Of a DNA stretch of 64,000 bases, positions 590 to 62,404 are shown in pieces. Location of the stretch: assembly GCF_964355755.1 (NCBI RefSeq), contig NC_092679.1, forward strand, positions 11,646,932 through 11,710,931. The letters run 5' to 3'. The notes below the pieces were generated by a model. It had not been told where the DNA came from and did no database searches. It worked only from the letters and a program-made list of their open reading frames with translations. Position 1 is the stretch's first letter. Each line of letters begins with the position of its first letter. The DNA comes from Antedon mediterranea (lineage: Eukaryota; Echinodermata; Crinoidea; Comatulida; Antedonidae). A program made the position numbers and the translations under genes.

Positions 590-3500
590 TAGAAGGGTAA
601 CTTAGCACTTTTTTTGTGCACTTTGTGACAAAAGCACCAAATTTGGCACAAACCTTCTTTAGGGTATATCTAACAATCCTAGAAGGGGTGCCCAAAAATC
701 GAAACAATTTAACGACGTCATTTGGACCACGCCCTTTTTTTAGTATTACGTAATTAGGTGAAAACTTAAATCTTCGTATATACATACCAAGTTTGGTATC
801 AAATTAAAACTCATGACATGTACATTGCAATACACACATAAAAAATATATGATTTCTTTTCAGACGGAATATATAGGTCAAATAATGTAATTTTCTGTCA
901 TATTGAAGGGTATTTCAATCAAAACGTGCCAATATTGTGCTGTGTTATGAACATTGTAGTTATAAGAACAACAACATTCATTTTTGTAATAGTACGAATA
1001 TATATTTATCCTGTACCAGTTACTTTCCTTTAAAATAATATTAGGAACCACTGAAAAAAAGTATATAAAACATATACTGTATCAAACTTGGGCTCAATAA
1101 CCACTGGACTATTAGTAAACCGACAAAAGACCATTTGACTGACAATTATGGCGTTAGCATCCATAACAATACATGGAGGTGATTATCAACTTTACTTTTA
1201 TGAAATTATTTATCTGGAAACAAACACTTATAATGGTACAGAGTTGCTAGATGACGAACAAGTTCCACGGCATGGGTAACAAGACCACTGCACTGCTGAA
1301 CGGCACTTGCAGTTCCCTGAGCAAAAAGGCAACTTTTTGCAGCCACACTTTAGCAATTCCCTGCATGCCTTGGATGCTTCAGGTAGTATTGTCCAGACTG
1401 GTGTCCATGTACTGCCGGTTTTAGTCCAACCAAAGTCTTCTGGTGATGGAGCATTCTGCTGTGGCTGTACACTGGTGGTCCAAATGCTTGCTTGGTATAT
1501 GGATCTGTTGGAATGCTGTAAAAGTGCATCCTGCAATAAACAATTTAAAGATTGGTGTTACCTTTTAATGAAAGAAAAACATGAACCTGATAATAAATTA
1601 TTAAACGACAATTGACAATTATATGGAAGCTCCCCTTACCTGTGTAGGAGGAATGTTGTCCATTGTCCGTGCCTTTCTTGAAAAAAGATCTTGTCTTAGC
1701 TTAGTAACACTTCTTAAAGTACTTGTCTTGTCGTATAGATGACATGTAAACTCCTCTAGCAACTGGAATTGAGATGAGTTGACTCCTAGAGATTTGAAAG
1801 GGTGATGTGCCATGAAAAGAAAGGCTTCTGTAACTGCTGGAAATGAGTTCCACGTCTCCCATGCGGAGTGTTTTGCTTTTCCGAAGAACTGGGATATAGT
1901 ATCGGACCCAGTAAATGCATGAAAAACTGGCAGCCCTCTTGACTTATCCTTTCCTAGGTTATGGCAGATGGTATTTATATTAAAATATTGGAAGTGCTTA
2001 CCCATGCCAAATGCGACCCAGATACACGTACCAGGATAACAGGCTATTAGATTGCAGAAAATACCAACCAGGATAACAATGACATCAGTATCAACTGTAC
2101 GCACCAAAATAACCCTGCTACCTTTCTTTAAGGCATCATCAATGTGAATGCACATCTTGGAGTCGGCCTCTTCATGGTCGCAGATTGACATAGGTTGAGT
2201 AGATGTCAACATACAAAAGACTCGCCTACAGGACATATATCAAGAATTACTTACTATTTAATATGCCTTTTTAATTAATTATTGGTATGAAACTGTATAA
2301 GTAAATTAATCGTTTGGTTACAAACAAAATAAATTAGTATGTATCATAATAAAACTTACCTGATGCAGTCAGAGTAATCATGGGTAGACACCTTTGTAGT
2401 TAAAAAGTTAAATAACTCCTCTTTATTTACTGAATCTTTCAGAAAGTCTGAAAAATTCCCTGGAATCTTTGTTTGTCCCCCAACTTTCCTCCTGACCCCT
2501 TTTCCTCTTTTTTCTCCTGTAGACTGCTTAAGACTATCTGTTCTGTAAGTGTCCCACACTATATCAATTCTGTTACTATTCTGCAGCTGCTGTCTGGTCC
2601 ACGGTAGAAAGACCTGTCATACAAATGATACAAGAATAACGATCCGCATATAGAAGTGACCAATTATATGGTGGTTAAACAATAGATACAATCCTGAATG
2701 CAAAGAAATGTACTCACCTTATCATCACCGTAGTCATCAAATGTAAATGCATGGTTGCTGGAAAGAGCATGGACAATAGCAGCTCCGTCAAACACCTTTA
2801 CATCAAAATATGTAGGAGGTTCAGGCTGGCCTTCAGTCTCCAAATGCTGTAGCAACTCAGACTTCTTAGTTGGTAGTCGAAGCTTTCCATTTACTGCCAA
2901 AGAGGGTGGCCATGGCTGGTTTTCGTGCATGAAGAAGTCTTCCAAATCTCCATCACGAGATTGACTTGCAATATACTCTTAACTTGTTGCTTTGTTTTGG
3001 ACACTGATTTTGACCATGGTGTTTGATGGCTTGTTGAATAATTGCAACACTTCTGTCGAGAATAACTTCCTTGAAATATTTTTGGTACTGGGTAGTACTT
3101 ACATCCTGAATTGTACGAACTGTCACTACTGCACTTTCATTGGCACAATCTCGAGCATCCAAGACCAGAAGTTCTGAACAATTATCGAGGAATTGGTTGC
3201 CTGCATTGCTCAGGGAACTGCAAGTAGGCCTACCCTTCAGCAGGTCTTTCTTGCACTGGTCTTTGTTATCCATGCCGTGGAACCTGTTCGTCATCTAGCA
3301 ACTCTGTACCATTATAAGTGTTTGTTTCCAGATAAATAATTTCATAAAAGTAAAGTTGATAATCACCTCCATGTATTGCTATGGATGCTAACGCCATAAT
3401 TGTCAGTCAAATGGTCTTTTGTCTGTTTACTTAGTCCAATGATTATTGAGCCAAGTTTGATACAGTATATGTTTTATATACTTTTTTTCAGTGGTTCCTA

Positions 3501-3965
3501 ATATTATGTTAAAGGAAAGTAACTGATACAGGATAAATAAATATTAGTAGTTGTATTACAAAAATGAATGTTGTTGTTCTTATAACTACAATGTTCATAA
3601 CATAGCCCAATATTGGCGCGTTTTGATTGAAATCCCTTTCAATATGACAGAAAATGACATTATTTGACCTATATATTCCGTCTGAAGAGAAATCATATGT
3701 TTTTTATGTGTGTATTGCAATGTACATGTCATGAGTTTTAATTTGATACCAAACTTGGTATGTATATACGAAGATTTAAGTTTTCACCTAATTACGTAAT
3801 ACTAAAAAAAGGGCGTGGTCCAAATGACGTCGTTAAATTGTTCCGATTTTTGGGCACCCCTTCTAGGATTGTTAGATATACCCTAAAGAAGGTTTGTGCC
3901 AAATTTGGTGCTTTTGTCACAAAATGCACAATCTTCATAAAAAATGGAAGTTAGCAACCCTGCTA
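590..3965 (-). mobile_element. Long-TIR DNA transposon A (3.4 kb)
   Basis: The outer ~700 bp on each side (about 590-1296 and 3243-3965) are reverse complements. Left begins TAGAAGGGTAAC; the right end read backwards begins TAGCAGGGTTGC. I found no clear target-site duplication. The internal gene runs on the minus strand, and its last exon reaches into the left arm, so the right arm carries an inverted copy of the gene's 3' end. The same design recurs in element G. The superfamily is not certain; Academ-like is one possibility, from memory, because I recall that superfamily as having short duplications and a large non-canonical protein. Ends may be off by some bases. Confidence 0.8.
1228..3294 (-). 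CDS. Transposon A protein, C-terminal half of the HAFTG-D-S family
   Basis: Four exons join in phase on the minus strand: about 2980-2718, 2613-2360, 2225-1640 and 1530-1228, all with GT/AG borders (donors GTGAGT, GTAAGT, GTAAGG). Upstream, 3294-2953 encodes a segment with LLVLDARDCAN in another frame, joined by an apparent single frameshift near 2980. Motifs in order: GDLEDFFMHENQPWPP, then IVWDTYRTDSLK with GKGVRRKVGG, then HEEADSKMCIH, VDTDVIVILVG, VFHAFTGSDTIS and AWETWNSFPAV, and finally a Cys-rich tail with CGCKKLPFCSGNCKC. I know this order from large multicopy proteins of cnidarians and other marine invertebrates that lack an assigned function. The repeated D motifs suggest a metal-dependent, nuclease or DDE-like core, which is inference. 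The N-terminal half is missing and the frameshift argues for a decaying copy. Confidence 0.72.
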
Positions 3966-5164
3966 ATAGGCCCGTTTCTCCTGGCTGCATATACTTCTTT
4001 CCATTGCATATTATCTGAAAAAAAGACACGAAGGCTGTGATAACCACCTGTAGAAGTTTGTAGCAATGTTTGAGGGTCCACATGGTACAGACGTAAGCCT
4101 ATGTTCCCTTGTAGAATTCTTTAGCCGGGTGTGTAGAAAGCGATGACCTCGAATTGGACGACACGACCCCAACGACTCTTGGCGTTCCATATCTGTTCGT
4201 TTGTTCGTGTCGACACATTCAGTATCAAATGGCGATATTTCTGTATTTTTTCAATCAATTGCTTGCTTGCCAGTATTATATAAGGTATGGTTTAAAGATC
4301 TTTGGCTATGTTCGGCTTCGGGATGTTATACCACACTTAGGCCTAGGCTAGGCTAGGCTATAGGGGTCGTCGGTTTCGTGTTATGGGTTGTCCAATTCTA
4401 GGTCGTCCAATTCGAGGTCGCCCGGGTCGTTGGGGTCGTCCAATTCGAGGTCATCGCTTTCTACTACACAGCCTACTGTAGGGCGTCTAATCGTTCTAAA
4501 TCCCAATCACATTGAACCCTTTGGTAAACATCCGGATCGGTTTATGGTAAATTGAGCATTGTTTTCAGGTATACATGAATATTTTGCATAACCAGACTAG
4601 AGAACTGTATGATCAGAAGCGAACTGTTTGGTGATGTAATCCCCAGTTTCTTGTTCGTTGAGGAAGTGTAATGCTTACTTTTTCACGTCTCGTGAATGAT
4701 AGCATAACAACAAATGATACGTAGGCCTACTAAATAACTCGTGTTACTATTACTATGCGGTAGCCATATTTATTCAGTAAAAGACATAGCGCCCTCAATC
4801 AGGGGCACGATATTGTGACATTTACTACTGTATATCCATGTTCTAACCAAAGTAGAGCTGTCTTGAATGTCATTTTTTACTTTAGATCATTAAGACATTG
4901 ACTGATCGTATTTATGTTTTCTGTCAAGTCGGTGGTTTGATTATAAACTATTGAAATGATCTCAACATTTCAAAAGTAAAACTTTGTCTAATCCCTCACT
5001 AGATGCTCGCAATTTAAGATATGTTATGATAAAATACAATAAAATATAAAAAATACAATTATTTATTTACAATCTCATTCAACAGCGGGAAACCCGCCAC
5101 TTACAGAATGGAATAATATTTACTTTCTGCTATATACATATATAGTTTGTTGTTTTGTAGAGCA
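3966..5164. other. Spacer between elements A and B
   Basis: Apart from a small inverted-repeat element at 4129-4472 I see no gene or RNA. The sequence is AT-rich with scattered TAGGCCTA words. Confidence 0.45.
4129..4472. mobile_element. Small inverted-repeat (MITE-like) element, ~340 bp
   Basis: The left end GTGTAGAAAGCGATGACC is the reverse complement of the right end (GGTCATCGCTTTCTAC), followed inward on both sides by copies of the word GTCCAATTCGAGG or its complement. The right part holds several such words in tandem. There is no coding capacity. It could equally be a folded-back tandem repeat. Confidence 0.65.
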
Positions 5165-5217
5165 CTCTTCTACGGTGGCTGATTTCCGCCAAAGAAAATT
5201 TTTTTTTATAATAATAC

Positions 5218-5540
5218 GGCGTTATAACGCCCTAATTTAGGGCGTTATAACGCCTTAATTTAGGGCGTTATAACGCCGTATTAGGGCGTTATAACGCCGT
5301 ATTAGGGCGTTATAACGCCGTATTAGGGCCTTATAACGCCGTATTAGAGCGTTATAACGCCCTAATTAGGGCGTTATAACGCCCTAATTAGGGCGTTATA
5401 ACGCCCTAATTAGGGCGTTATAACGCCGTATTAGGGCGTTATAACGCCGTATTAGGGCGTTATAACGCCGTATTAGGGCGTTATAACGCCCTAATTAGGG
5501 CGTTATAACGCCGTAAATACCGCGTTATAACGCCCTAATT
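5218..5540. repeat. Subterminal tandem palindromes, left arm of B
   Basis: About 15 copies of the perfect 14-bp palindrome GGCGTTATAACGCC (some with one change), separated by short linkers TAATTA or GTATTA. A matching array of about six copies lies in the right arm at 21356-21475. Subterminal arrays commonly bind transposase; that role is inferred here. Confidence 0.9.
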
Positions 5541-6310: not shown

Positions 6311-6451
6311 GCTAATACAATAAAGAAAATTTTGTTTACTACTTTTTATATATAAATTTAGTATTATTATAAGTGGTGTTTAATTATTTTGGGTGGGAAA
6401 TATGTTTTTATTTAAAAAGGAGAAATGTTTCACTTTGTTTTGGTTTTTCAG

Positions 6452-7087: not shown

Positions 7088-7123
7088 TTTATTGAATTAC
7101 GATACGAATGAGGTCTGTCTATA

Positions 7124-8995
7124 ATGAATGACTTGTTAAATTATGAGGTTGAGGTTGAGAGTGAAAATCCTGTCATTCCCAAGTATACTAAAGTAAGGCT
7201 GCACCGGGGTCATGTTTTGAAAGAACTTACAGATTTCTTTATCAATACTGACCTTGATTGTCCTATTGAGGTTGAAATGGTTATGCCTAATGGCCAACTT
7301 GAACTTGGTGAAGACTTTGGTGGTGTATTAAGAGATGTTCTTAGCGAATTTTGGGAGGATTTCTACAATTTGTATACTGTGGGAGAACATCTGAAGGTAC
7401 CCTGTATACGGGATAATATGAGCAAAGAAAAGTGGCAAGCCACAGCAAAAGTTCTGGTTATCAGATATAAACAGGAAAGTTTCTTCCCGTTCAAATTAGC
7501 AGTACCATTTTTACAATATGTGATGGCTGGAGATGACACCATTATCAATCAAAACCATCCATCAATGATACCCACTTTTTTAGAATTAGTTGCAGACAGT
7601 GAAAAAATTGTTTTAGAAACGGCACTGAACAACTTCTCAGATGTGGATGAAGAGGACCTATTTGATATCCTCGACAATTACAAGGTAAAAAGAAATGCTA
7701 CGAGTGAAAATATTAGAGCAATTCTACAGGATGCTGCCCACCGTACCTTGATACAGGGAACATCATACATATGTAGATGCTGGCACAGCGTGTTTGTAGA
7801 ACACTTAAAACCCGCCCTATATACGATGAACATTGAAGATATCTGTCAAACAGCTATACCAACAACCAAGCGCGTCATAGCTGCGTTAAATCTGCCACAA
7901 GATGCATCAGAAGAACAAAGAAATACTAATAAACTTCTTCTCAAATTTATAAAGAGTCTGTCTGTGGACAAGTTAATGACGTTTATGAGATACACTACAG
8001 GTAAGTTCATTTGAAAATAAGGTTTTTAACCGATGTTAAGGCTAGCCTCTATCCCTAGACATAAATACTTTTTTCTAAATTAGTGAAAAAAAAGATTTTT
8101 GTATATTTTAAAGGGTATTACTAACTGTGCAACAACAAAAAATTTTAACCAATTACTATTGATTAGATGACAACAACTAATAGTAATACTAATTAATATT
8201 ATTATTATTATTAATTAGTTGGAAGGAGGTTTCTCGAAGGTTTTTTTTAGATTATCTCCTTTTATAGCTCTATATGATCTGATTAATAATTGGTTTGAAT
8301 GATATTTATTTTTTAGGGATTTGCACTTTGAAACCAGTATTTTTGCCAGAAAAATTTATGTTTTTCAACCAAAAATTTTAATAATTTTGTTTTATATTGT
8401 CTTCTTTTTAGATCTAATCATGTTATTGTTATAATCAATATAATATAAGTGGTTTGCAGGAGGTTTGAGTTTTTTTTAGATTTGCGCTGTGAAATCTTTA
8501 ATGTAAAAATTATTTTTTTTACTCAAAAACTGGCAAACTTTACATCATTTCAATTTTTTTTCCGCATAAATTATCACCTTTTATAGTTCTAGTTGTGATC
8601 TAATCAATGATCACTTTAAATGAGGTTTGACCTCAAATAGGAAAAAAAAAATGTTTCACTATGATTGATAAAGATGAACCCTATCCCATATGTTTTCAGT
8701 TTTTTCACTCAGTACTACTAGTAGTAGAGGCTAGCCTTAAATTATTAATAATATTTTATTAAATATCATTATATGTATTTATCTTTTTATTTCTTTATTT
8801 AAAGGAGCTAATCAAATGTTGGGAAAGAAAATAACAGTGCGTTATGTTCAACAGTCTGACTTTGAGAGACGTCCAGTTGCGCATACATGTGGGTGCATCC
8901 TTGAATTGGCTTCCAGCTTCAAGGACTACATTGAATTTCGATCAGAGTTCAGTGCTGTGTTAGAAAATAACATTTGGGTAATGGACATTGTGTAG
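7124..8995 (+). CDS. HECT-type E3 ubiquitin ligase domain, two exons
   Basis: Exon 1 runs to 8000 (ACAG|GTAAGT) and exon 2 is 8805-8995 (TTTATTTAAAG|GAG), joining in phase. The ~355-residue product has VRLHRGHVLKELTDFF, LGEDFGGVLRDVLSEFWEDF, DKLMTFMRYTTG and, near the C-terminus, RRPVAHTCGCILELASS with the HTC triplet that in HECT ligases holds the catalytic cysteine, ending WVMDIV. HECT enzymes pass ubiquitin from an E2 to a substrate through that cysteine. The gene lies inside transposon B, opposite to and ~6.4 kb from the transposase. It looks like cargo rather than a host gene. Substrate unknown. Confidence 0.75.
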
Positions 8996-9065
8996 AAAAC
9001 TAAACAAGTAGCTAAAAAAATGATAATATGTGATTTTAGCATGATATAGACAATCACGATTATGC

Positions 9066-15390: not shown

Positions 15391-17090
15391 CTAAAAAAAT
15401 CCAATTTCTCTTCTAACACAATCCCTTAGGTTGATGTAAAAGAGCATAGAACCTTCTGGAGTAGTTGGGATCTCCCATTCGTTGAATATGATTGTATTCA
15501 AACAGTATTCAAATAGATCACGATCACATGGGTATTGGTCTTTGAATTTACTGGATTCTTTACAAAGGTCTATTCTCCTCTGATCTACCTGCTTGATGTG
15601 ATCCCTGCTGTGATAAACCTGTGGCAGCTGAAACATCACTAGAGGGCGTCTATTGGTAACATGGTCTTGCTTAGACCTTCTTATCAAATGAGTGTCCCAT
15701 AACTCCGCTGTTCTATCAAGATCATCCTGCATAAATGTAGACAATGATAATCATAAATACATAATTCATACTAATCTAAATCCAACGTATTACAAGCTTG
15801 AAAACGAATAAGCGAGTTTCGAGTGATTGTTTCTCAGAAATGGCATCCATGTATTTATAGCTAACATTATTTAAAAAATGCAATATCTTTTGAACCAGGA
15901 GCTGTACAGTAGGTATGGCATATGAAGATGTGTTGAAATTTGTGTTGTGATCATGAAATACTATGTACATTAGCTAGATTGACATTGAGGTAAAAAAAAT
16001 CTAATGTAGCCTATTTAATTAAACTACTGCATCTGTTAAAATTTGAAAGCGTTCCTTTATTAGGAAAAAAAACCCATAAATTAACAGACAACCAAAATTG
16101 ATATGCCTTCCATTTTAATGCTTATAATTGATATTCTACATTTACATGAAGATGCCAGATGATCAACAGGCATTATGAGTGGAATATGCCTTCCTTACAT
16201 TGGATACTGGTTGGTTAACGCACAAATTCATGACAGAAGTTACTAACCTGAATAAGCCTCATGAACACAAATCTAACAAGTTCTTTGTCCAATAAGTCAC
16301 CAGAGAAGTGGCCTTCATGAATAAGATATTTAAAAATCAAAATCCAAAACTCTGTGCACTGCTTCCTTAATTGTCCCCACCAAGATTCTATCCTTTGGTT
16401 TGCCGTACTTTGGCCACTCAAGTAACTCTTTTTGCCAGCAAACGTGTCATCATGATTTCTGAGAAACATCTGAAATGCCGCAATATGCCCATTTTCTGTT
16501 CCTTTGTCTGTTCTGACAAGAGTAGGACATCCTCCTATCCTTTCGACTGCTTTCAAGAAGAAACCTCCAATATAAGCTGGATCATTTGTTGTGCTGTTCG
16601 CCTCAAGCCAAATTAGTTTTCTTGAAAACCCATCAATGCATCCATTAATACCAATGCCATACGGTTTGAGTTTGTCCATTGAATCGACATGCCATACAAA
16701 ATTCGGCCCTCTGGCTGAATATCGTCGACGTACTAATCTTCGCCTTTTCCGAAGCTTCACCCCTTCTGGATCTAGTTCAAGTAGAATCTTTCTAACGTTT
16801 TCTCTACTAACAACCATACCTGCCTTTACCAACCTCAGATGCATCCAGCGATAACCATGTAACTCACCACCTCTTTGCAATAGATTTAGTATAAATCTTC
16901 TAACTTGATCAATGTCAGTTTGTTGTCTGTGACGGTACAGTTCTAGGCGCTGTAGTTCCCTTTGCAGCTGACAAATGCTTATGTTAACGTCATAACAGCA
17001 ACTCAATGTGGCTGCTATTTCAACATGTGTATACCCAGACTTGAAATAATACTTGATAAGTTCATCCGTTTCATTCAATGCCACTTCCAT
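15391..17090 (-). CDS. IS3-type DDE transposase of transposon B
   Basis: Exon 1 is 17090-16248 (donor CAG|GTTAGT) and exon 2 is 15726-15391 (acceptor TTTATGCAG|GAT), phase 0, giving about 392 residues. An N-terminal helix-turn-helix-like region (KSGYTHVEIAATLSC, ~18-32) precedes the conserved HGYRWMHLRLVKAGM (~78-92) and an rve integrase core. The DDE residues are visible: HVD136 in NFVWHVDSMDKLKPYGI, RTD195 in LVRTDKGTENG and E235 in NQRIESWWGQLRKQ. The enzyme would cut and join the element ends in the nucleus. I start at the ATG at 17088-17090, the first Met before the conserved block; an upstream in-frame Met at 17160 would add a hydrophobic stretch and is less likely. No stop breaks the core, so it could be active. 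Confidence 0.85.
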
Positions 17091-17963
17091 GAAGATTAAA
17101 TTATAAGAAAAAAAAAGTACAATTAACACCAAATTTACAAAGATATACTGAATATCTTTCACAAAAGACAGCTCACTGTTCCAACCTGTAGGCCTATGTC
17201 AGAACAACAACACATACAGTATAATGTTACAATGTCATAAAATTGTGAAATGCCACACTCACAATGATTTTCAACTAATGCCTATATTAATAATTCCAAA
17301 TAAACGTATGATCTCCATTGAAGAAGTCTAATTATGTTTGTCTCCGTTTATAATGGTTATACATTAAACCATGGAGGGCCTCCATCACGATTAGGCCTAG
17401 CCTTATAATAGGTATTAGCAACATTATTACTAAATAAGTACTATTTAAGCATGGACCTAATTTATAGGTCTATGATTTAAGTAAGCAATATGCACAGTTC
17501 TAGTGTTAATTATAGGTGGCGCTATTTCGTGTAACAGTATGCCTTGAGTTGAGAAACTATTTTCCAAATTTAAAAAAATTGCATAATAATACTATAACCG
17601 GTCCTAGTTCTGAGAGCGGGATCGATTAAATTCCTGATTGTGATAATTATACTTATAGGCATCTTTCAGCTATGTCCAGCGCTAACAGGAAGCATACATT
17701 TTGATAACATAACAATTAACATGAAGCGCATCACACACGCACGCAACCCCTTCGGCCCACCATTTATTATAGAATACTGTAGGCCTACAGGCCTAGCTAG
17801 TAACTATTATTAATAATTATTATTAGGCTCAGCCTACCAGCCCATTAATTTAATTCATTATCTGTCGTCACTTGCACTTATAGTGTAAAATTTTACAAGG
17901 CCAATTTTCAATCAAATAATTATATTGTCCAAGGTATAAACATGTTTCTTATAATAATACTAT

Positions 17964-18887
17964 TATATAAATGATATTATACCACCTGGAGTTGCCTCAA
18001 ATTTAACGTATACGATCAATTCAAATAAAAATGAAACAATTAACTATCAACATAACTGTTCGCTAAATGAACATAATAATTTAACTGAAAATTGTAAAGT
18101 ATTTTTAAATAATGGTCTAAGTATCCTAGGATTGAATATAGTTTCTCTACCAAGCAAATTTGATGAATTTAAGTATCTAATCAACAACAATTCTATTGTT
18201 GATATCATAGCACTCAATGAAACACGTTTAGATAATGTAATTAAAGATGAATCAATACACATTGATGGCTATGATATTTATAGAAATGACAGAAATAAGG
18301 AAGGGGGAGGGGTTGCAGTTTATGTAAATAGAGGAGGATGTTTTACTTGTAAACTAAGAAATGATTTCATGAAAATGGAGCTTGAGATAGTAGTAATCGA
18401 ACTTTGTAAACCAAAAACTAAACCAATCATTTTAATAGCATGGTACCGCCCACCAAACTCAAAAATTCAACTTTTAGATATTTTTGAACAAATTTTAGAA
18501 GAAAACGAATGTCTAAACAAAGAAATAATAATAATAGGAGATGTCAATTGTGACACACTTTCACAAAACCCTACTTGCTATACACAAAAATTAATGGATA
18601 TAACTAATAACCATTTTCTAACACAAATTATAACTGAACCGACAAGGATAACAAACCAAAGTAAAACTCTGATTGATCATTTTTATACATCCTTTCCAAA
18701 CAGAATTTCTTCCTCGGGTGTACTTAACACAGGAATTAGTGATCATTCAGCTATTTACGCTGTCATTGGTAAAGAAGAAAAACCAAAACATAACCATAAA
18801 TATAAAACAAAAAGGAACTATAATAACCTTGATGAGGAAAAACTACAAATTGATATGTTAAATGTAAATTGGCATGAAATAACTTAA
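17964..18887 (+). pseudogene. LINE endonuclease (APE type) domain
   Basis: The open frame enters from the LINE's left end at about 17964 with no ATG, so an N-terminal part is probably missing. Motifs: LGLNIVSLPSKFDEF, IIALNETRLDN (catalytic E), GGGVAVYVNRGG, ILIAWYRPPNS, IIIGDVNCDT and GISDHSAIYAV (the SDH motif). These are APE endonuclease motifs that nick target DNA to prime reverse transcription. A TAA at 18885-18887 separates it from the RT in the same frame, so the original product was probably one polyprotein. Confidence 0.8.
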
Positions 18888-45682: not shown

Positions 45683-48600
45683 ATGGATTTCATAGATGTG
45701 CTTCCTCCTGAAATGATTTGCAATATACTACTGAACCTGGACTCAAGAAGCATGTGCAGCATGTCTGAATCCTGTAAGATATTGCATGACATGGTTGAGA
45801 CTGATTGGCTCTGGATGAAGTTGTGTAGCAACCATTGTGATACATCTAATCAACTGTTTCTCAGTGACCGAAGTCAAGGTTTGTCTTGGAAAGTAAGGGA
45901 ATGATTTTTGAAATTGTCATAATATACAAAATAATGAATGTTTATGAGTTTATGCTGAGAATATTTCATGAGTTGAAAAATTGACTGCTCTATATTTAAT
46001 GAGGCGGAGCGAGTAAAGAACTCAGACAATTTTTCATATATAAAATATTCTCTCCACACAACGAATACAAGACATTCATTATTTTTGTTTTATAACAAAC
46101 CTAATTTGTTTCACTTTATTCATCGTAAATTATTGACAAATGATAGGTTGGGAAACTAGGCTAAAATAGGCAGTACTCTAACTTCTGATGCTGGGAAGAA
46201 CAGTTATAGGGGGTAATATTTTAGGGGGTGGTGTCAGGATACTATGGATAATGGTTAGCCATGCATACAGTGTATAGAGCAGGAGCCCAGAGGGGTCAAC
46301 CTAGCTGGAAAGTTAACCAATTTCTATGCATGTGGCAATTATCTACGTACATACCAATGTATGGAAATGACAGTCTGGCGCGTTTCTTTTGGTGGGTGTG
46401 GCTAGGAGGGACATTGTAAAGGGTAAAAAAAATGAGCTAGATCAGCTGAAAAGTTAACCCCATGAAATATTTTGCAAATTGTTTGACATAGAGTGAAATA
46501 TAAGGAATGGCCATTGCCAGACGATTTTAGTGGTGGGGGGTGCCTGCCAGACCCCTATTTCTGGGGGGTCAAAAATGAGCTAGACAGCTTAAAAGTTAAC
46601 CCTCTAAAACTGGTGGGAAAATGTTCAATAAACTCATAATTATCATGAATGACCATTGCCAGACATTTTCAGTGGTGGATTGTGCCCGCCAGACCCCGTC
46701 AAACACCCAACCCCCCAAAAATTGAGCTAGATCAGCTGAAAATTTAACCCCATGAAATATTTTGCAAATTGTTTGACATAGAGTGAAATATAAGGAATGG
46801 CCATTGCCAGACGATTTTAGTGGTGGGGGGTGCCTGCCAGACCCCTATTTCTGGGGGGTCAAAAATGAGCTAGATCAGCTTAAAAGTTAACCCTCTAAAA
46901 CTGGTGGGAAAATGTTCAATAAACTTATAATTATCATGAATGACCATTGCCAGACATTTTCAGTGGTGGATTGTGCCCGTCAAACACCCAACCCCCCAAA
47001 AATTGAGCTAGATCAGCTGAAAAGTTAACCCCATGAAATATTTTGCAAATTGTTTGACATAGAGTGAAATATAATGAATGAATATCGCCAGACGATTTTA
47101 GTGGTGGGGGTGCCTGCCAGACCCCCATTTCTGGGGGGCCAAAAATGAGCTAGATCAGCTTAAAAGTTAACCCTCTGAAACTGGTGGGAAAATGTTCAAT
47201 AAACTCATAACTATCATGAATGACCATTGCCAGACATTTTCAGTGGTGGATTGTGCCCGCCAGACCCCGTCAAACACCCCACCCCCAAAAAATTGAGCTA
47301 GATCAGCTGAAAAGTTAACCCCGTGAAATATTTTGCAAATTGTTTGACATAGAGTGAAATATAATGAATGGACATTGCCAGACGATTTTAGTGGTGGGGG
47401 GTGCCTGCCAGACCCCCATTTCTGGAGGGCCAAAAATGAACTAGATCAGCTTAAAAGTTAACCCTCTAAAACTGGTGGGAGAATGTTCAATGTACTCATA
47501 ACTATTATGAATGACCATTGCCAGACATTTTCAGTGGTGTGTGGTGCCCGCCAGACCCCGTCAAACACCCCCACTCCCAAAAATGAGCTAGATCAGCTGA
47601 AAAGCTAACCTTTTAAAACATGCTGTAAAATGTTCAGCATGATCCCTAGTATAATAAATGACCATTGCTAGACATTTAAAGTGGTGGGTTGTGTCCGCCA
47701 GCCCATTAAACACCCACCCACCCCCCCCCCTCCCCCCCAAAAAAAAACATGAACTAGATCAACTCAAAACCTAAACTTATAAAACAAAATATATGGAGCA
47801 ATTAAGTACACTAAAAAACAGCATGAATGACTAAAATGAGAACTACACCAAATATCAAACACCCGACATTTTAGCATATGATACTTTATATAGTACCTTA
47901 TTCTATCTACAGTAGTTTTCATTAGTTACAACAAAAAACAGTCTTATTTAATAAGCTATGACTTTTCTGCACAAATTATTTTAAATTAATCCATATATTC
48001 CTCTTCACTCCATGCATCGCCATAAGAATCACTTGATTCTTCAATCTCTGTTTCTTCCGTTTCACTGTCAATTTGTCCTTTTTTATTCTTGATGGACGGC
48101 ATTGAGCTGTTGCAGTTTCCCCCAATTCAAGACCAGCAAATGTTCTCAGCTCCGTGACTGCCATGGCTCGTTGACTCATAGTCAATGACCACTGGCGCAT
48201 TGCATTTTCTGAATTAGGAAAGGCAACAATCCCTCTCATACTTGAAGAAGAATCACGATTGACCGTCTGTTCTAAGGAAAGGTCAACAGCTGATCTACTG
48301 TAGTGCTTATTTGTACGTCTGATGGAAAATGCTCATTTTTCCAGTACTTTAGGTCAACGTTTTTCAGTTTCTGTATGAATAGAGTTCCCCATCTGGCGTA
48401 GTTAGGTCGGTTCAGGGCAAAGTAAACAGATAATATGGTTGGAAATACATTAATGTAGCCAGTGACATCATTTGCTTTCACACATCTCTGAAGTTCTCTA
48501 TGGAGTCGATTAATAAGAAAAATGTAAATAGCCCAGAATTGTGCTGTTGAACCTATATTTCCAGTAAGCACTGACTGGAAGTAATTCTCGTACTTCTGCA

Positions 48601-51600
48601 GGTGATTAATTATAACAGGATCCGATATATGTTCTTCAATCAATGATGGGTCCAAAGGTGCAGTTGACATTATTTCTTGAAATGTGTGATGATCTTCTGC
48701 ATTTATTTCTTGAAGAAAGCGTTTACACAACTTTTGCTCCAAGACATTGGCAAGCAATTGGTGAATTCTAGTGCACCTGTTGTAAAACTTTCCTTTGATG
48801 AAACCCATCATTGACCCCTCAGCCAAGATATCTGCTTCTTGGAGAATATATTCGATACCGCTGTCGTTAATGTACGTTCCAACTGCTCCGTAGAACGCCA
48901 ACTCTGTGAAAATTGCCCTGTAATACTAAAAGCTTATCAAATAGGGGGGATTGTATTGTTTGTATGGAGTAAGCTTTTAATGCTACTGCCAAATCATATG
49001 TCACAACTGCATAGTCTTGTCTGCATAGTGTTGGCCAGTTTCCTTGGCAATAGCCATAGTCTGGATCATTTTCTCTCTCTAACCACATCATTGTTTTGAT
49101 ATAGGATCCATGTAGCAAATGCACTGAACTGGTAAATGATTATTGATATACTTGCTCATGAATCCGACATGTAGGGGTGTATCTCCATCATTCAGTTTCC
49201 AAAACCAATACATATCCAATGCCTTCAGTGGTATTTGGTATTCCATTGGTTTGTCAGTGATTGTACTACATTCTCTAACATTTGTAGTTGATGTGGCATT
49301 GGAACTTATAAATAAAGCTTTATTTATACCTATCCTAAAAGGTGGTATTTCTCTCCAACAAATTTCCGCCTGTTTCTACCATCCCGAAATCCAATAGTAT
49401 TCCTATTGAGCAGTTGGTCGTCATGCAATATATTCTGATATGTATGTCCAACTGTAGCGTGTAGAGTTTCTTTACCATCAAGTGTTTCTACATTTGTATC
49501 ATTATTCTCCCATACACATGCAGTTGCCAAGGTTGGGTCAAGCCGGATACCATCTGGGGCGTCGCGTTCATCATCTTGAACTGAATAGGCAAACTCAGTC
49601 TCAAGGCCTTTGCTTTCACTACTAATACAATGTCAAAATTTGCATAGCCAGTTTTGATCCTGTCAGAGATGTAAAACATAAACCAACGACAGTGTGTTTC
49701 CATGGTTTCACAGTTCCACGAGATACATTATAGATGGCATCAGATGCAATGGAAATAACCTTTTTATCAAACTTGTCTTTGTTTGCATCATTGGAATTTT
49801 GGTCGATGCCACCAAGAAGACTCCTAAAGAATAATTCTAACTGTGATGGTATCTTGGGAGCACACTCTTTTAAGTTTTGAACTGTAGCAGGTCTTTGTCT
49901 GTGGGAGCTGCATGATTATAGATCTAAGATGAAGAGCAGCCCATTTTATTTTATTATCCTGTACATATTGTTCAGAATTATCATAAAGTCGAGCAGTGGC
50001 TTCTTCTCCTATAAGAAGTGATCTATAAATGAAGTTACCTCTTCGTCTGTCTGCAGGTTTTACTTTGATTTCATCTTTAAATTTTTATTGAATTTTCCTT
50101 GTAAGATTTTGGGACGAATATGAGTTGATATCACTTTGATTTCCTCCATTATTGACAAATTCGATTTTGTAAAAGCTTAGCAAATCAGAGACAAGTATAG
50201 CTCGTTGTTTTCCCAATACTTAATAATAATTCAATATGTTTCAGTAGGGATGAAAATGCCCTTTTGTGACTTCCATAAGATGTGTTACTTCAATAAGATG
50301 AATGCTCTTCTGTTGAACCATCATGTTTATCAGTTTCTAGAAGAACTGAACTCGGCAAATCAACGCCACACCGAATTAGACTATTGATACGTTGGTTTTT
50401 TGAAAATTTTACCCGCTGGGAAAGTGACTTGCACCCAGAAACCGTTGCTATCTTAAGCCTTTTCTCTTCTTTCCCATTTTTTCGGCCTTTTCCACAAAAT
50501 ATGCAAGTTCCCTTTAACATGCCACACTCATCTGATTTCTGAAGGACACTACTTTGTTTTGTTTCACGGCAGTGTAATACCTATGACATACAGTAAAGGG
50601 TGATAGCTGATTGAATTTTTAGGTTGTTTCATAAGAAAAACCTTGTTTGTTGTATCAGCATGTTTGTCAGACTTCATTTTCTTACGTAATGCAGCAGCAT
50701 TCTTTACAGTTGACCATATCATTTCACTGAACGCTCTTAACATACAATCGTTGTCCGCCGTTACCGTTTGGCAGATGTAGCACTTTGAAATATGATGTAC
50801 CACTCTCTATCATAATCAAAATGCATTTAATAAAATAAACCTTTGTTTTGAAATGTTGATGATAATCAACAACATTATTCTCTAGGGAACCATTATAGAA
50901 GATAAGTCAGTTTCTAAATATGTCCTTTAACTGCATAAACCAATTGACTAATTGATTTACTTTTTTCCACACCACAAAAAGACAAAGAAGTCTTGTTCTG
51001 AATACCTATTTTACACTATGTTGAACTTATATACCATAGTAGCACATTTGGGAATTAGGTAAGGGGTTGGATGGATGGGGTGGTTCTATAATGAGCAAAT
51101 AAAAATGTCTGGTAATGACAATTCATATCCTTGACAGTATACTACACATTTTCCCACCAGTTTTACAGTGGTTAACCCTTGGCCTAATCTGGGTCATTTT
51201 TGGGGGTTGGGTGTTTGAGGGGGCCTGGTGGACACAACCCACCACTTAAAATATCTGGCAATGGTCATTTATTATACTAGGGATCATGCTGAACATTCTA
51301 CAGCATGTTTTAAAGGGTTAGCTTTTCAGCTGATCTAGCTCATTTTTGGGAGTGGGGGTGTTTGACGGGGTCTGGCGGGCACAATCCACCACTGAAAATG
51401 TCTGGCAATGGTCATTCATAATAGTTATGAGTACATTGAACATTCTCCCACCAGTTTTAGAGGGTTAACTTTTAAGCTGATCTAGTTCATTTTTGGCCCT
51501 CCAGAAAGGGGGGTCTGGCAGGCACCCCCCACCACTAAAATCGTCTGGCAATGTCCATTCATTATATTTCACTCTATGTCAAACAATTTGCAAAATATTT

Positions 51601-52337
51601 CATGGGGTTAACTTTTCAGCTGATCTAGCTCAATTTTTTGTGGGTGGGGTGTTTGACGGGGTCTGGCGGGCACAATCCACCACTGAAAATGTCTGGCAAT
51701 GGTCATTCATGATAGTTATGAGTTTATTGAACATTTTCCCACCAGTTTCAGAGGGTTAACTTTTAAGCTGATCTAGCTCATTTTTGGCCCTCCAGAAATG
51801 GGGGTCTGGCTATTTCACTCTATGTCAAACAATTTGCAAAATATTTCATGGGGTTAACTTTTCAGCTGATCTAGCTCATTTTTTTTACCCTTTACAGTGT
51901 CCCTCCTAGCCACACCCACCAAAAGAAACGCGCCAGACTGTCATTTCCATACATTGATATGTACGTAGATAATTGCCACATGCATAGAAATTGGTTAACT
52001 TTTCAGCTAGGTTGACCCCTCTGGGCTCCTGCTCTAGTAGCTACATCCTACTAATATTAAAGTTATATCTAATAGTCATGATCACCACCACTAGAGGGAA
52101 GTACAACAAACAGTGCACTGCATATCTAAAATGAGTTAATTTCAACCATAATAATTTTCATTTTTATTTTTTCAGGAAACTTATATACGCAATGTTGGCT
52201 GTAATCTGATAAAGAGGAAATGGAAACATGGACTTTTCAGCAATATTACTTGCTATGAAGATCTTCCATCGCAAGTGTTCTGTCAAATGGACCGAGAAAC
52301 ATGGGGGGAAATACTAGAATTAGAGTTAACAAGATAG
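45683..52337 (+). CDS. FBXO48: FBXO48-like F-box protein, two exons
   Basis: Exon 1 is 45683-45892 (donor AAA|GTAAGG), exon 2 is 52176-52337 (acceptor TTTATTTTTTCAG), phase 0; 123 residues against ~155 in human. An F-box spans residues ~3-48 (DVLPPEMICNILLNLDSRSM, DWLWMKLC). The second exon has RNVGCNLIKRKWKHG and ends MDRETWGEILELELTR, which closely resembles my recollection of the vertebrate FBXO48 end. F-box proteins link SKP1-CUL1 ubiquitin ligases to substrates; the substrate here is unknown. The ~6.3-kb intron holds transposon E in the opposite direction. The ATG chosen is the one just before DFIDVLPPE. Confidence 0.82.
46275..52036 (-). mobile_element. Long-TIR DNA transposon E (5.76 kb) in FBXO48 intron
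   Basis: Ends are TAGAGCAGGAGCCCAGAGGGG-type at left and the reverse complement at right, flanked by GTA on both sides (46272-46274, 52037-52039). The arms (46275 to ~47700 and ~51060 to 52036) are built of ~290-bp tandem units containing GAGCTAGATCAGCTGAAAAG and GACCATTGCCAGACATTTTC; the left arm has about one more unit or two than the right. The interior holds a decayed minus-strand gene. A 3-bp duplication and TAG end resemble element G. Confidence 0.85.
47976..50803 (-). pseudogene. Transposon E protein, N-terminal and middle part, frameshifted
   Basis: Minus-strand pieces in order: a possible N-terminus at 50803-50564; a Cys motif at 50520-50290 (GTCIFCGKGRKNGKEEKRLK); WAALHLRSIIMQLP near 49.9 kb; TLATACVWENNDTNVETLDG with DGRNRRKFVGEK (49.5-49.3 kb); RQDYAVVTYDLAVALKAYSI (49.1-48.9 kb); AFYGAVGTYINDSGIEYIL, GSMMGFIKGKFYNRC and NRLHRELQRCVKANDV (48901-48272); and GIVAFPNSENAMRQWSLTMS with GLELGETATAQCRPSR (48239-47976). 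I know these as the front and middle of the same large protein whose C-terminal part is in A. Several frameshifts and stops make it non-functional; the C-terminal HAFTG part is absent. Confidence 0.75.
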
Positions 52338-55425: not shown

Positions 55426-55552
55426 TTGCACATGATTACACTATAAAATATACTACTGTATAGGCCTAACATTCTACATTTGCTGGTAATCTATATCATA
55501 AACATTATCTTGGGGAAATTTCCGTTAACTACATTTTAGCCGTTGACTGTTC

Positions 55553-57899
55553 GGGATCCAGTCAAGTCGCCCCATCGCAAAGTCGCCCCATACAAAGTCG
55601 CCCCTTACACAGTCGCCCCATCGCAAAGTCGCCCCAAAACAAAGTCGCCCCGGCACAGTCGCCCCATCGCAAAGTCGCCCCATTACAAAGTCGCCCCATC
55701 GCAAAGTCGCCCCATCGCAAAGTCGCCCCAACGCAAAGTCGCCCCATTGCAAAGTCGCCCCAAAACGTTAAAAAATAGTTTACAAGTGCGTAAAATGTTG
55801 CAATGATACACAAAATAACACAGAACGTGTAGGCATAGGGGAAGCCCCGCCATGTAGTCTCAGGTCACACGATCGGCACGCACCCCCATCAGAGAGGAAG
55901 CCCCCGACTAATCACTCCGCGGTCGCACTCCGCGGTCGCACTAACGTGCTAGCTCACCATGAGAGGGAAACCCCCGTAATTACTCCGCCGTTGCCGTTGT
56001 CGCGCTCTACAACGCACCATCTGAAGATGGGGAAACCCCGCCGGAGTTTTTATCGGTTTTAATCATATTGGGTGCGTTTGATATCGATTGCGTTGTTACT
56101 TTGGTCGCGCTAAATGTCGTATACATTATAATGTTTATCCTATTATATACATAATTTGTGTTTAAATTTTTATTTTACAGGTTTTAATGGAGTGATGTGC
56201 TTTTTAAAAATCATTTAAAAAAATAGTCCCTAAAAAGATTATCCCTGATTTATAGTTTCGAAAATGTTAATTTAATATGATTTTAAAATTAGTTACCACA
56301 GCCACAATTACGAATCTTTCTTCAACCTACGCGTGGATACCAGCTAATTTTTTAGGATAATATAATAAATGTATAAATGTGTAGTAGGCCTTCGTATAGA
56401 TTTACAGTAGTTAAAACAATAACAGTGTTGTAAGACAATAAGTGTTATAGGCTACTTATTGATCATTTTGCATTTATTGACAAGTTATGTGTCTTAATTT
56501 TATAATGACTTTTCAAAATGAAGAAAAAAAAGGGGATTTCATCGCCGATGTGATTGTTTTACATGCAGGTATTAGTAAAATTAAAACGCGACATTTTGAC
56601 CATGGAAAAACCATCGTACAGTATCGTGTGCGTGTTTTTTAAAAAGGGGAATCCCCGACGGTCAGCAGAAAGACGTAGCAGCTGTGAGGAAACAGATACC
56701 AGAAGGCGCAGCTCCGATTGGATTCAGAGAATGTTTCAGATGGCGAGTCGCCTTTTATTCAACAGCACAATGATCATTTTACTGAAGAAATTCTTTTCAA
56801 TCCTTTTGGTTATAGAACATTCTAATTATAATGCCTAATAAATATCCTCTTATATCGGGTGTTTATTTAATTTTAAATTAAACAAGACAGTGAAGAGGCA
56901 CGGAATAATACGTACACGGACGTACGACAAATACACACACGCACGTTATCATTTACGACATATAGTGGTGATATGATCCAATTTTATAATGGATATAATG
57001 ATGGGATTGCCTTTCCAGGAGTCTTACAATCAATGTTCACTGTAATACTATGTATATAATAGTAAACTGAATGTTTATAAATAAATTGTTTTACGTAATT
57101 TGTTGCATATAAAATAAAAGACACAGACGTAGCCTACGTTTCCTATAAAATATTTCACATTTAAATAAGTACGTATGTACTGTTAAATGACATTATGCTG
57201 GATAATACTATATCTTAAACTATGTTTACAAATTGTCATTTTTTAAGCCACACATCTTTCTCATAATACTGACCTGTAAAATAAAATAAAAAATCAATTA
57301 TTAATATAGGCCTAATAATAATAATAAATATTCATCGACCAAAGTAAAAATAATCTAGATCGTATAACATCATTTTATCGCGACCGATTTCGAACGCGAC
57401 TGATATCATCGTAAAACTCCGGCGGGGTTTCCCCATCTTCAGATGGTGCGTTGTAGAGTGCGACAACGGCAACGGCGGAGTAATTACGGGGGTTTCCCTC
57501 TGGTAAGCTAGCACGTTAGAGTGTGCGACCGCGGAGTGCGGGGCTTCCTCTCTGATATGGGGGTGCGTGCCGATCGTGTGACCACCTGAGACTACATGGC
57601 GGGGCTTCCCCTTTTATGCCTACACGTTCTGTGTTATTTTGTGTATCATTGCAACATTTTACGCACTTGTAAACTATTTTTTAACGTTTTGGGGCGACTT
57701 TGCGATAGGGCGACTTTGTGATGGGGCGACTTTGCGATGGAGCGACTTTGCGTTGGGGCGACTTTGCGATGGGGCGACTTTGCGATAGGGCGACTATGTC
57801 GGGGCGACTTTGTTTTGGGGCGACTTTGCGATGGGGCGACTGTGTAAGGGGCGACTTTGTATGGGGCGACTTTGCGATGGGGCGACTTGACTAGCATCC
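55553..57899. mobile_element. Non-autonomous TIR element F, GTCGCCCC repeats (2.35 kb)
   Basis: Flanked by GACTGTTC at 55545-55552 and 57900-57907 (8 bp, as in hAT elements). TIRs are ~480 bp: subterminal arrays (55562-55765, 57690-57890) and then shared sequence with ACACAGAACGTGTAGGCATA, GAAGCCCCGCCATGTAGTCT and CACGATCGGCACGCACCCCC. Same family as C and more complete. Confidence 0.88.
56554..56838 (+). CDS. 94-codon frame of element F, unknown
   Basis: Counterpart of 39868-40152, with two changed residues (FFKKGNPRR; RRSSCEETD). The few base differences are both silent and not, so there is no sign of selection. Probably not a gene, but it is the only long frame both copies keep. Confidence 0.25.
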   Translation: MFYMQVLVKLKRDILTMEKPSYSIVCVFFKKGNPRRSAERRSSCEETDTRRRSSDWIQRMFQMASRLLFNSTMIILLKKFFSILLVIEHSNYNA

Positions 57900-57907
57900 G
57901 ACTGTTC

Positions 57908-58846
57908 TACATTACTGATGTTGATTTTACTACATAAGCTGTTGGTGTTTCTACATTTGCTGGCCATACTATAATCCGAATTACCTTGAGGAAATTTCCG
58001 TAACTATAACTGTACTTAGCCGTTGACTGTTCTACATAGTAAGTTTGTACAGGCCCTCTAGAACGTTGTTCTAGGAAGGAAGAGAATTATATGATACCCC
58101 ATTTTGGCTACCATCTAATACCCGATTATTCTGAAACCTTATGCAGGTTTAAGCTGCAGTACATCAACACATTCAACGTAAGCTAAGTATGTTTTAGATC
58201 AATGATATAGCATTCCGTGACACACTAGGTAATTCAGTAATTGTACATTCGTATTCAATAGAACATTTGAAGGATTGCTACTGAGGTAATTGTTGTTCGG
58301 GTGATTCAGCGGTGTGTACAACGGCAACGGCTGCTGACCGATCGCCCTGGTAAACAATGCCTCGTCTGTTATTTTGTTCGATATTTATTATGATAAATAC
58401 ATGAGGAGTAGGCCTACATAAAGAAAAATTCCGACTCATAGATAGCTGGCCTACTTGCCTTAGTGATTAATAGTGGTACGTTCACATAGCTCCATGTTCA
58501 CATCTATAGATATATATTTATTTGTTCGATTGTAGGTCTAGCCTGTGTGTGTGAAGGTCATTTAGGCCTAGCCTAGAGTTGTTTTGATCCTTAAGGATCG
58601 TTAAGCAGTATACTAGTATACGAAAGAAGAAGAAGAAGGTTAAAATACATAACACCTCGTACGATTGATATGTAAATATGATCTGCCACTGCTACCCTTA
58701 AGTCTTACCCTTCCCTCATTAAATATAAAAGTGAACGCTGTTCATAATTTTTAGTTAAAAATGCCTCCGGAAAATGGTACCGTATAGGCCATGCGTAGGG
58801 GTAATGAAATATGAAAAATCAGCTCTGTTTTTCAAAATTTTCTTAT
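57908..58846. other. Spacer with repeated flank of element F
   Basis: CCGTTGACTGTTCTACAT-like words and the stretch GGAAATTTCCGT..AACTA..TTAGCCGTTGACTGTTC recur at 55510-55552 and 57985-58035. No gene seen. Confidence 0.5.
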
Positions 58847-59559
58847 TAGTAGAGTAGAAATAAGGTTTCACCTCAAAAAAATTGCAACAAAAGGTATTTC
58901 AACGGATTTTGGTAGTATTAGGTGTACTAAACAACAGAAAAAAAGTCTCAAGAATTTCGACCCCCGGAAAGTGGTTTTTTTCAAGATGGCCGCCAAAATA
59001 GATAAAAAGTGAAAATGGCCATACCTCCTAAACTACTTGGTCTATTGATATAATTTTGGTACCAACATACTCAGAACATACATATTTATATTCGCTATAA
59101 TAGAACATTTTGGCCAAAATTAACCGGAAATACCATTTCTGACAATTTGACCTTTGACCTTGATATGTTGTATCTTGGTAACCACTGACCGTAGGGAAAC
59201 AAATGATGGCTCAAATTGTTCAGAATGTACATATTTACATTTATTGTAATGAGACATTTTGTCAAAAAATGGTTAGAAGTAAAGGTTATTGACCTTTAAC
59301 CTTTATCTATGTAGAATTTCCATATCTCGGCAACTATGTGTGGTAGAGATTTAAAATTGGGCTTTAAATACTGAGAATATACTTATTTATATTTACTCTA
59401 ATGAAACAGTTTGACAGAAAATGACCAGAAACGACATGTTTGACCATTGACCTTGATATGCTATATTTCGATAATGACTGACTGAGATACACCATTTATG
59501 GCTCAATTTGTTCAGAATATAATTATAACTTTTAAATTTCTAATTACGGTATAGCAGCA

Positions 59560-60840
59560 ATTGATTAGATATTGTGCATGTATTTAGTACGGCATCTTAA
59601 ACAACTATTCCAACTTCGTCTTCATCATCGTCATCAATCTTTCTATCTACGTTGTCCCATTCTTCTAGTTGACACACTCCACAAACTGAAGTACATGCCA
59701 ATCCATAGCGTCTACAACTGCAACATACATCCAGTAGTTACAAAGGATGATTTTCAAAGTTCTTCTGGAGCAGCAGTTTCCATTGTCATTATTGGCACAA
59801 ATGTTTTATTACAAACTTTCCATCCCCACTTGGTAGCATCCATGGTATTATCTTTCTATAGCCATTGCATGATTTGACTGACATTCTGTAGCAGATGACG
59901 TTGGTGGTAGTTGTTGAGGCTAGGTTTGATAAATGATTTACCCTCAACAACTTTTTTATTAAATAGCTTGCATCTGTAGCTATTCAGGGAATCCAGTGAC
60001 TTCGCTCCAAAAAGAATAGACATGTCCTTCAGTCCAAACTCCTCGATAGTTTAAAGTTTCTGATGCGGTTGAGTGAAAATATCGGCACACATGTCATATT
60101 CTGGGTTACTTTCAATCAATTTATTAAATGCCGCTTTCTTGCCGATTCCGAAAATCCTAGACGTCGAATCACAACCAGTGAATGCATGCACTATGGGTAA
60201 TGCATTTCACATTTTATATCCTAAAACAGATTTCAATCTGGTTACATTAATCACTCTGGTAGGCCCATCTTTTCCTTTGTCTAATCTGAAGTACACTTCT
60301 TGGTTTGTTGTATTTACATGATACAGTAAAAGTACCAGTAAGTCCGTGTCTTCTCCAATCAAAGTTACTGTATTATGTTCAGAGACTTCAACTGTTGCCA
60401 GAGCAATGTCAACATCGGCATTGTTTTGTTTTGTTTTTTTAAACCATATTTAATGAGGGTGATCCACGCAGCTATTGCTGATCATTAGGGACCCTCAGAG
60501 GTTCACAAGACAAACATATACACAAGATGCTCTACAAAACAAAGTCTTATTACAAGTCTTTGGGAGTGGAGTAATTTGGTCGTTAGAAAAAATCCTGACA
60601 TGTGACGGGACTTGAACTCAGGACCATTGGAGTGGTAGCCAAGCATCATAACCATAACTCGTTGGCTGCATGTCGTACAGGACATTCTTTTTTCTGTAGC
60701 TCATATGAAAGCATGTTGATAAATTTGTGTTTGTTCTCATGCCTTGACAGGAATTCTTCTTTCTTTCCATCAAATTCAGTTAGGACAAATCTCTCTAGAC
60801 GATGTAATGAAATATGAACTAAGTCCGTTTCCACCCTCAC
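59560..60840 (-). pseudogene. Transposon G protein, C-terminal part of HAFTG-D-S family, SINE-interrupted
   Basis: From 60840 down: FLSRHENKHKFINMLSYELQ and VRHAANE; a SINE (60421-60660); then DVDIALATVE, LIGEDTDLLVLLLYHV, TRVINVTRLKSVLG, IVHAFTGCDSTSRIFGIGKK and NPEYDMCADIFTQPHQ; a stop; then LFGAKSLDSLNSYRCKLFNK, QLPPTSSAT and EELLKII in shifted frames. The TDLLVLL and HAFTGCD blocks are the counterparts of VDTDVIVILVG and HAFTGSD in element A. Stops, shifts and the SINE make it dead. Confidence 0.75.
60421..60660 (-). mobile_element. tRNA-derived SINE, copy 2, inside transposon G gene
   Basis: Matches 28222-28480 almost throughout, in the same orientation; the tRNA head is at the right and slightly shorter. 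It splits the coding region between VRHAANE and ADVDIAL. Confidence 0.8.
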
Positions 60841-60914
60841 TCTTCGAAGCCAAAGACATCTTTAGGAAGGCAAATAAACCAATAAATTGATAGAAAGTAA
60901 CCTAGAATATGACA

Positions 60915-61440
60915 CTGATGTGTGCCGATATTTTCACTCAACCGCATCAGAAACTTCAAACTATCGAGGAGTTTGGATTAAAGGCCATGTCTTTTCTTTT
61001 TGGAGCCAAGTCACTGGATTTCCTTAATAGCTACAGATGCAAGCTGTTTAATAAGAAAGTTGCTGAGGGTAAATAATTTATCAAACCTCAACAACTACTA
61101 CCACCAACCTCATCTGCTACAAAATGTCACAGTCTTAGAGTATACTATCAAATCATGCAATGGATAAAGAAAGATAATACCATGGATGCTGCCAAGTCGG
61201 GGAAGTTTTTAATAAAACATTTGTGCCAATAATGACGATTGAAACTGCTGCTTCAGAAGAACTTTTGAAAATCATCCATTGTAACTGTACTACTGGATGT
61301 AAAACTGTATGTTGCAGTTGTAGATGATATGGATTGGCATGTGCTTCAGTTTGTTGAGTGAGTCAACTAGAAGAATGGAACAACGTAGATAGAGAGATTG
61401 ATGACGATGATGAAGACGAAGTTGGAACAGTTGTTTAGGA
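60915..61440 (+). pseudogene. Inverted copy of the gene 3' end in the right arm of G
   Basis: Plus-strand frames read CADIFTQPHQKLQTIEEFGL, SFLFGAKSLDFLNSYRCKLF, ETAASEELLKIIHCNCTTGC and KTVCCSC, i.e. the C-terminus of the same protein with its Cys-rich tail, better kept than in the left arm. It lacks the front of the gene and is therefore a TIR-borne fragment. Confidence 0.7.
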
Positions 61441-62404
61441 TGCCGTACTAAATACATGCACAATGTCCAATCAACTGCTGCTATACCGTAATTAGAAATT
61501 TAAAATTATTATTATATTCGTTTTTGTTTACTTTTCCGGTTTTTTATTCACTATTATTATTAAGAATGTATACAGTATGTTCTGAACAATTTGAACTTGA
61601 ACTCATATTCTAAATATAATATAATAAATGTAAAATATTACAGTTACTTGATTCCCAGGTAATTCCATGGGTAGATTAGACCATTACGAAATAAAAATAA
61701 TTATATTCTGAACAAATTGAGCCATAAATAGTGTATCTCAGTCAGTCATTATGGAAATATAGCATGTCAAGGTCAATGGTAAAAAAAATGTCGTTTCTGG
61801 TCATTTTTTTGTCAAACTGTTTCATTAGAGTAAATATAAATAAGTATATTCTCAGTATTTAGAGCCCAATTTAAAATCTCTACCACACATAGTTGCCGAG
61901 ATATGGAAATTCTACATAGATAAAGGTTAAAGGTCAATAACCTTTACTTCCAACCATTTTTTGACAAAATGTCTCATTACAATAAATGTAAATATGTACA
62001 TTCTGAACAATTTGAGCCATCATTTGTTTCCCTACGGTCAGTTATTACCAAGATACAACATATCAAGGTCAGAGGTCAAATTGTCAGAAATGGTATTTCC
62101 GGTCAATTTTGGCCAAAATGTTCTATTATAGCGAATATAAATATGCATGTTCTGAGTATGTTGGTACCAAAATTATATCAATAGACCAAGTAGTTTAGGA
62201 GGTATGGTCATTTTCACTTTTTATCTATTTTGGCGGCCATCTTGAAAAAAACCACTTTCCGGGGGTCGAAATTCTTGAGACTTTTTTTCTGTTGTTTAGT
62301 ACACCTAATACTACCAAAATCCGTTGAAAAACCTTTTGTTGCAATTTTTTTGAGGTTGGCCCCTTTTTTTCATTAGTTCTACTCTACTATATAGCTTAAC
62401 CCCA

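Follow-up and report, generated by a model that had tools for sequence, protein, structure and literature searches.

The nuclease of Academ transposons is of the XPG type. Academ is placed among the DDD/E superfamilies (PMC9587614), and 100 curated Academ elements from bivalves have a mean length of 5,565 bp (PMC10294476). According to the part of PMC10045372 that cites Kojima 2020, target-site duplications are 3 or 4 bp long in AcademX and 9 or 10 bp long in AcademH, and these lengths are related to what the two lineages encode, a nuclease in AcademX and a helicase in AcademH.

We analyzed a stretch of 64,000 nucleotides (hereafter the window, C10:11646932-11710931) from the 354-Mb genome of the crinoid Antedon mediterranea, which comprises 18 contigs, 11 of them chromosome-sized. 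By eye, several open reading frames of the window resemble other known proteins. Adjoining long ORFs at 17958-21068 (+) are similar to a LINE endonuclease and reverse transcriptase, a 327-aa ORF at 16215-17198 (-) has an integrase-like core (WHVDSMDKLKPYG..DGFSRK) and is possibly transposon-derived, and a 300-aa ORF at 7112-8014 (+) is like the C-terminal part of a HECT-type ubiquitin ligase.

The window also contains three elements with terminal inverted repeats (TIRs), named A, E and G. These are very probably defective members of several Academ-type families of the AcademX lineage that are active in this genome and whose intact members encode a protein with both a DDE transposase domain and a nuclease domain.

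Ends, inverted repeats and insertion sites

All ends of A, E and G read 5'-TAG...CTA-3'. The initial annotation had proposed TIRs beginning with TAG at the three elements and 3-bp flanking repeats for E and G only. Inverted repeats were found at all three, the boundaries are exactly where it had placed them, and both flanking repeats were confirmed: E is flanked by GTA/GTA and G by TAT/TAT. The window copy of A is without a 3-bp duplication (flanks GGG vs ATA). The terminal sequences are TAGAAGGG and TAGCAGGG for A, TAGAGCAGG on both sides of E and TAGTAGAGTAGAA on both sides of G. The elements and their ends are as follows.

590..3965, minus strand: element A, 3.4 kb, TAG-ended, nuclease half (TIRs, ends, shared copy boundary, profile match)
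590..1282, plus strand: left TIR of A, overlapping the nuclease gene at its 3' end
3263..3965, minus strand: right TIR of A, in which the final codons of the nuclease gene recur inverted
46272..46274, no strand: left target-site duplication of E, GTA (flank sequence)
46275..52036, minus strand: element E, front and middle (DDE-like) half with a broken frame (TIRs, ends, profile)
46275..47704, plus strand: left TIR arm of E, including a 290-bp tandem unit x4.1
51197..52036, minus strand: right TIR arm of E (inverted-repeat and tandem-repeat evidence)
52037..52039, no strand: right target-site duplication of E, GTA (flank sequence)
58844..58846, no strand: left target-site duplication of G, TAT (flank sequence)
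58847..62389, minus strand: element G, nuclease half with stops (TIRs, ends, profile)
62390..62392, no strand: right target-site duplication of G, TAT (flank sequence)

The paired segments are nearly identical. In A, 614-1000 pairs with 3545-3931 (96%) and 1114-1282 with 3263-3431 (98%); in E, 46275-46500 pairs with 51811-52036 (99%) and 47116-47704 with 51222-51810 (98%); in G, 58870-59421 pairs with 61805-62356 (98%), and more pairs lie inward. The TIR arms of E are themselves tandem repeats, with 4.1 copies of a 290-bp unit at 46426-47610 and 147-bp half-units at 51146-51787. The window has further inverted repeats, not related to A, E or G, which are formed by dispersed copies of a short-unit minisatellite in both orientations (39185-39385, 40947-41168, 55551-55837 and 57615-57901; frames KSPHRKVAP/QSRPIAKSP).

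Searching the whole genome with segments of A, E and G returned many copies. The boundary at position 590 is common to more than 25 A copies, mostly 93-99% identical, and all three families have recent copies, many of them 95-99% identical. Three A copies (C2:2379163, C3:17176247 and C11:2777341) have equal match scores and share a stop; they may have been copied from one another very recently.

For copies outside the window in the same genome, we sampled the flanks of eight A, eight E and 10 G copies. Exact 3-bp duplications flank all eight A copies, all eight E copies and eight of the 10 G copies (24/26 together), and one of the two remaining G copies has a 4-bp match, TATA. Adding the three window elements and five full-length ones to these 26 gave a set of 34 insertions. 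A 3-bp match was present in 30 of them, compared with a mean of 2.98 and a maximum of 10 in 5,000 random pairings of left and right flanks. The same shuffling of the 34 insertions gave no excess of flank matches at 1, 2, 4 or 5 bp. The duplicated bases are A+T-rich and varied, the commonest being TAT (7 of 30). Because 3-bp duplications are so far above the shuffled expectation, there is strong evidence that the elements were inserted by a transposase that cuts with a 3-nt stagger.

Full-length relatives and the predicted domains of their protein

We picked seven long-ORF loci (L059-L065) by ORF length alone, regardless of repeats. These copies encode the protein in full, with ORFs of up to 1,555 aa. 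Had most copies lain outside inverted repeats, this would have spoken against the reading of the initial annotation; instead, six of the seven lie inside TAG-ended TIRs, five of these six with 3-bp duplications. Long TIRs with TAG ends were detected directly in L059, L060, L061, L063 and L065, and L060 is without a 3-bp duplication in the flanks at its resolved TAG ends. A first reading of L062 (961-8705) as TIR-less was overturned by the exact boundary common to its copies, where a TAG-ended repeat of ~16 bp (TAGGCCATCGGGTGAA) is flanked by the duplication CCA, a 35th insertion scored by eye and outside the 34. Although the TIR of L062 is this short, the element has both the TAG end and the 3-bp duplication, and long TIRs are thus not essential to the group. 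The seventh copy, L064, has a degenerate inverted repeat and is outside the six. L059 is a close relative of E, and its 1,031-aa frame includes the E segment at 95% identity. In genome searches inspected by eye, a DDE-like match and a nuclease match share a strand and keep a constant order, ~2 kb apart, at ~14 loci.

The alignment of the full-length proteins has N-terminal Cys/His motifs, which are probably zinc-binding, followed by a middle block and a C-terminal block. The middle block is conserved at W-D-N-x-D, T-F-D and D-x-T-I-E-Q-T-x-N-R and includes AFYGAVG. Its predicted model is of moderate confidence (mean pLDDT 65.1). Compared using VIA-align, the model matches the P element transposase with Z 11.9 over 361 residues, followed by Hermes (10.0), ISCth4 (9.7), RAG1 (7.9) and Transib (7.2), and the top 14 chains are all transposases or RAG1. 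Foldseek alone gave no significant match for the model, and a PDB sequence search with the middle-domain profile gave no match, so the DDE assignment rests on VIA-align. The evidence is good but not final that the middle block adopts the fold of a DDE-type, RNase H-like transposase domain with a large helical insertion. Its three catalytic residues D, D and E are candidates assigned from conservation.

The C-terminal block contains the conserved run I/V-D-G, V-F-D-x-Y, (E/D)-A-D, D-T-D and G-C-D, an acidic motif series of the kind expected of FEN1/XPG nucleases. When its profile was compared with the PDB, it matched human Exonuclease 1 at two colinear segments (E 5e-4). The model predicted for this block (mean pLDDT 70.2, pTM 0.70) has EXO1 as its best match, with Z 12.5 over 230 aligned residues, and the best 50 structures listed are all EXO1, FEN1, GEN1, XPG, XRN or plastid exonuclease. 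Pfam searches of the nuclease parts reported no nuclease family at E 0.001; they gave weak single matches, including the 5'-3' exonuclease N-terminal domain at E 0.0034. A nuclease motif scan of viral contigs returned no match. By predicted fold and acidic residues, the domain containing the HAFTG motif is a PIN-like (FEN1/EXO1/XPG-like) nuclease and not a DDE core. The initial annotation had left the HAFTG core as either DDE or PIN-like; the second option stands and the first does not, the DDE-like fold being that of the middle block.

The kind of transposon is a known one. What becomes clear here is that blocks hitherto labelled uncharacterized appear, from these models, to be DDE-like transposase and FEN1/XPG-like nuclease domains. 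Pfam DUF6589, of unknown function, covers the middle block in five of 10 members and exceeds the cut-off in L062. The middle domain thus matches a family other than the named transposases, and its likeness to AcademX is drawn from descriptions rather than from Repbase Academ protein sequences. Both points would suit a separate, unnamed DDE superfamily that independently gained a FEN1/XPG-like nuclease and shares the 3-bp duplication with Academ by chance. We consider such an origin quite unlikely, as a DDE domain, a nuclease and 3-4 bp duplications are the very combination ascribed to AcademX in the cited part of PMC10045372, and we retain the assignment to AcademX.

What the three elements carry and how they probably moved

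We mapped A, E and G on a profile of 1351 positions that was built only from full-length copies outside the window. A spans positions 756-1325, G 865-1343 and E 155-761, in agreement with the earlier view that A and G encode the C-terminal part and E the front and middle. The same profile found no nuclease match in E, and a Pfam search of the window ORFs gave no usable match. The coding remains are as follows.

2718..2978, minus strand: exon of A with the first acidic motif VFDGAAIV; donor AAG/GTGAGT
2360..2613, minus strand: exon of A with the VWDTY..SLK motif; acceptor ACAG, donor CAG/GTAAG
1640..2225, minus strand: exon of A with the HEEAD, DTDVIVIL and HAFTGSD motifs (sequence search, splice reading)
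1228..1530, minus strand: last exon of A with the Cys-rich tail; stop codon 1228-1230
50293..50580, minus strand: N-terminal Cys motif CIFCGKGRK of E (sequence)
48272..48925, minus strand: open piece of the DDE-like domain of E, AFYGAVG to NYARW (profile 476-651)
60054..60449, minus strand: nuclease core of G, EDTDLLVLLL and HAFTGCDSTSRIFGIGKK, with a stop between both pieces
60906..61324, plus strand: C-terminal coding stretch of G, repeated in inverted orientation (profile 1185-1313)

The four exons of A join at canonical GT/AG sites into an open frame of 467 aa with every acidic motif present. Among nine other A copies, the frame is open throughout in just one, and selection on the A nuclease gene was therefore dropped as an explanation. 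Within one exon of the nuclease frame, singletons gave a pN/pS of 0.70 and five shared changes one of 0.19; over all exons, it exceeded 1 in five equal-length copies, a value likely to reflect alignment problems.

Both arms of G carry the C-terminal coding stretch, one in each orientation (profile 1185-1313 on the plus strand, 1197-1343 on the minus strand), and the right arm of A repeats the last codons of its gene. The simplest reading is that the front of the element in A and G was replaced by an inverted copy of the 3' end and its TIR, which would account for the long TIRs as well as the missing half. Because all three families have recent copies, A, E and G most likely moved in trans. We attach very little probability to the further idea that a functional FEN1-like nuclease is still produced by A and other nuclease-only elements and works in trans alongside the DDE protein of other families. 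If true, the two activities of the superfamily would be split between separate elements.

It is very unlikely that the nuclease-like protein represents cargo from a host gene family, with mobility supplied from elsewhere: only the nuclease half is left in A and G and A keeps its spliced open frame, but in full-length copies the nuclease is fused to the DDE-like domain in one ORF, the pair recurs across the genome at the ~14 loci, and the scarcity of open frames among other A copies indicates no clear constraint.

Proposed mechanism and comparison with described superfamilies

On the AcademX assignment, intact families would encode one protein of ~1,200-1,550 aa that combines Cys/His motifs, a DDE domain and a FEN1/EXO1/XPG-like nuclease, with a Cys-rich tail after the nuclease in some families. 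The N-terminal Cys/His motifs and the tail may bind the TAG-ended TIRs, and the DDE domain would cleave the ends and join them to target sites opened by 3-nt staggered cuts. During excision or integration, the nuclease may trim flaps or branched ends. A and G would have lost the front of the gene and gained the inverted copy of its 3' end, and E would have lost the nuclease half.

The initial guess of a transposase of one DNA transposon superfamily, Academ-like, is supported by the TIRs, the 3-bp duplications (30/34) and the predicted folds of an XPG/FEN1-type nuclease domain and a DDE-like domain in the same protein, features by which AcademX is described. An Academ-like identity fits every feature tested and is supported as such, AcademX being compared through its published description.

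Other superfamilies were rejected on their ends, duplications or coding content. Kolobok duplications are TTAA, and those found here are varied 3-bp sequences with TAT the commonest. Zisupton, hAT and P make duplications of ~8 bp; the flanks here have no excess of matches beyond 3 bp. EnSpm/CACTA elements have 3-bp duplications and CACT(A/G) termini, and the termini here are TAG in every family with located ends. Pfam found no helicase family in the long ORFs, and AcademH was rejected on this ground and on the 3-bp duplications.

These results assign a function and a mobile setting to a protein family left unnamed in Pfam, where DUF6589 is its middle, and the insertion sites show that elements bearing the nuclease generate 3-bp duplications. 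With several distinct full-length families, a single animal provides material on why a transposase of the cut-and-paste kind has a flap-type nuclease. Where genome annotations list these ORFs among host genes, they should be masked.

The C-terminal domain shares its predicted fold and acidic motif series with FEN1/EXO1/XPG nucleases, but in these elements it is a single domain within a transposon protein, with the Cys-rich tail following it in some families. The predicted middle domain is similar to those of hAT (Hermes) and the P element, RNase H-like with a large helical insertion; unlike the elements studied here, both are without a FEN1-like nuclease. AcademH belongs to the Academ superfamily and has a DDE transposase, but in the cited part of PMC10045372 it encodes a helicase and makes 9-10 bp duplications, whereas the elements here make 3-bp duplications. 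AcademX, known here by its description in the same source, is alike in its DDE transposase and nuclease, its 3-4 bp duplications and its TIRs.
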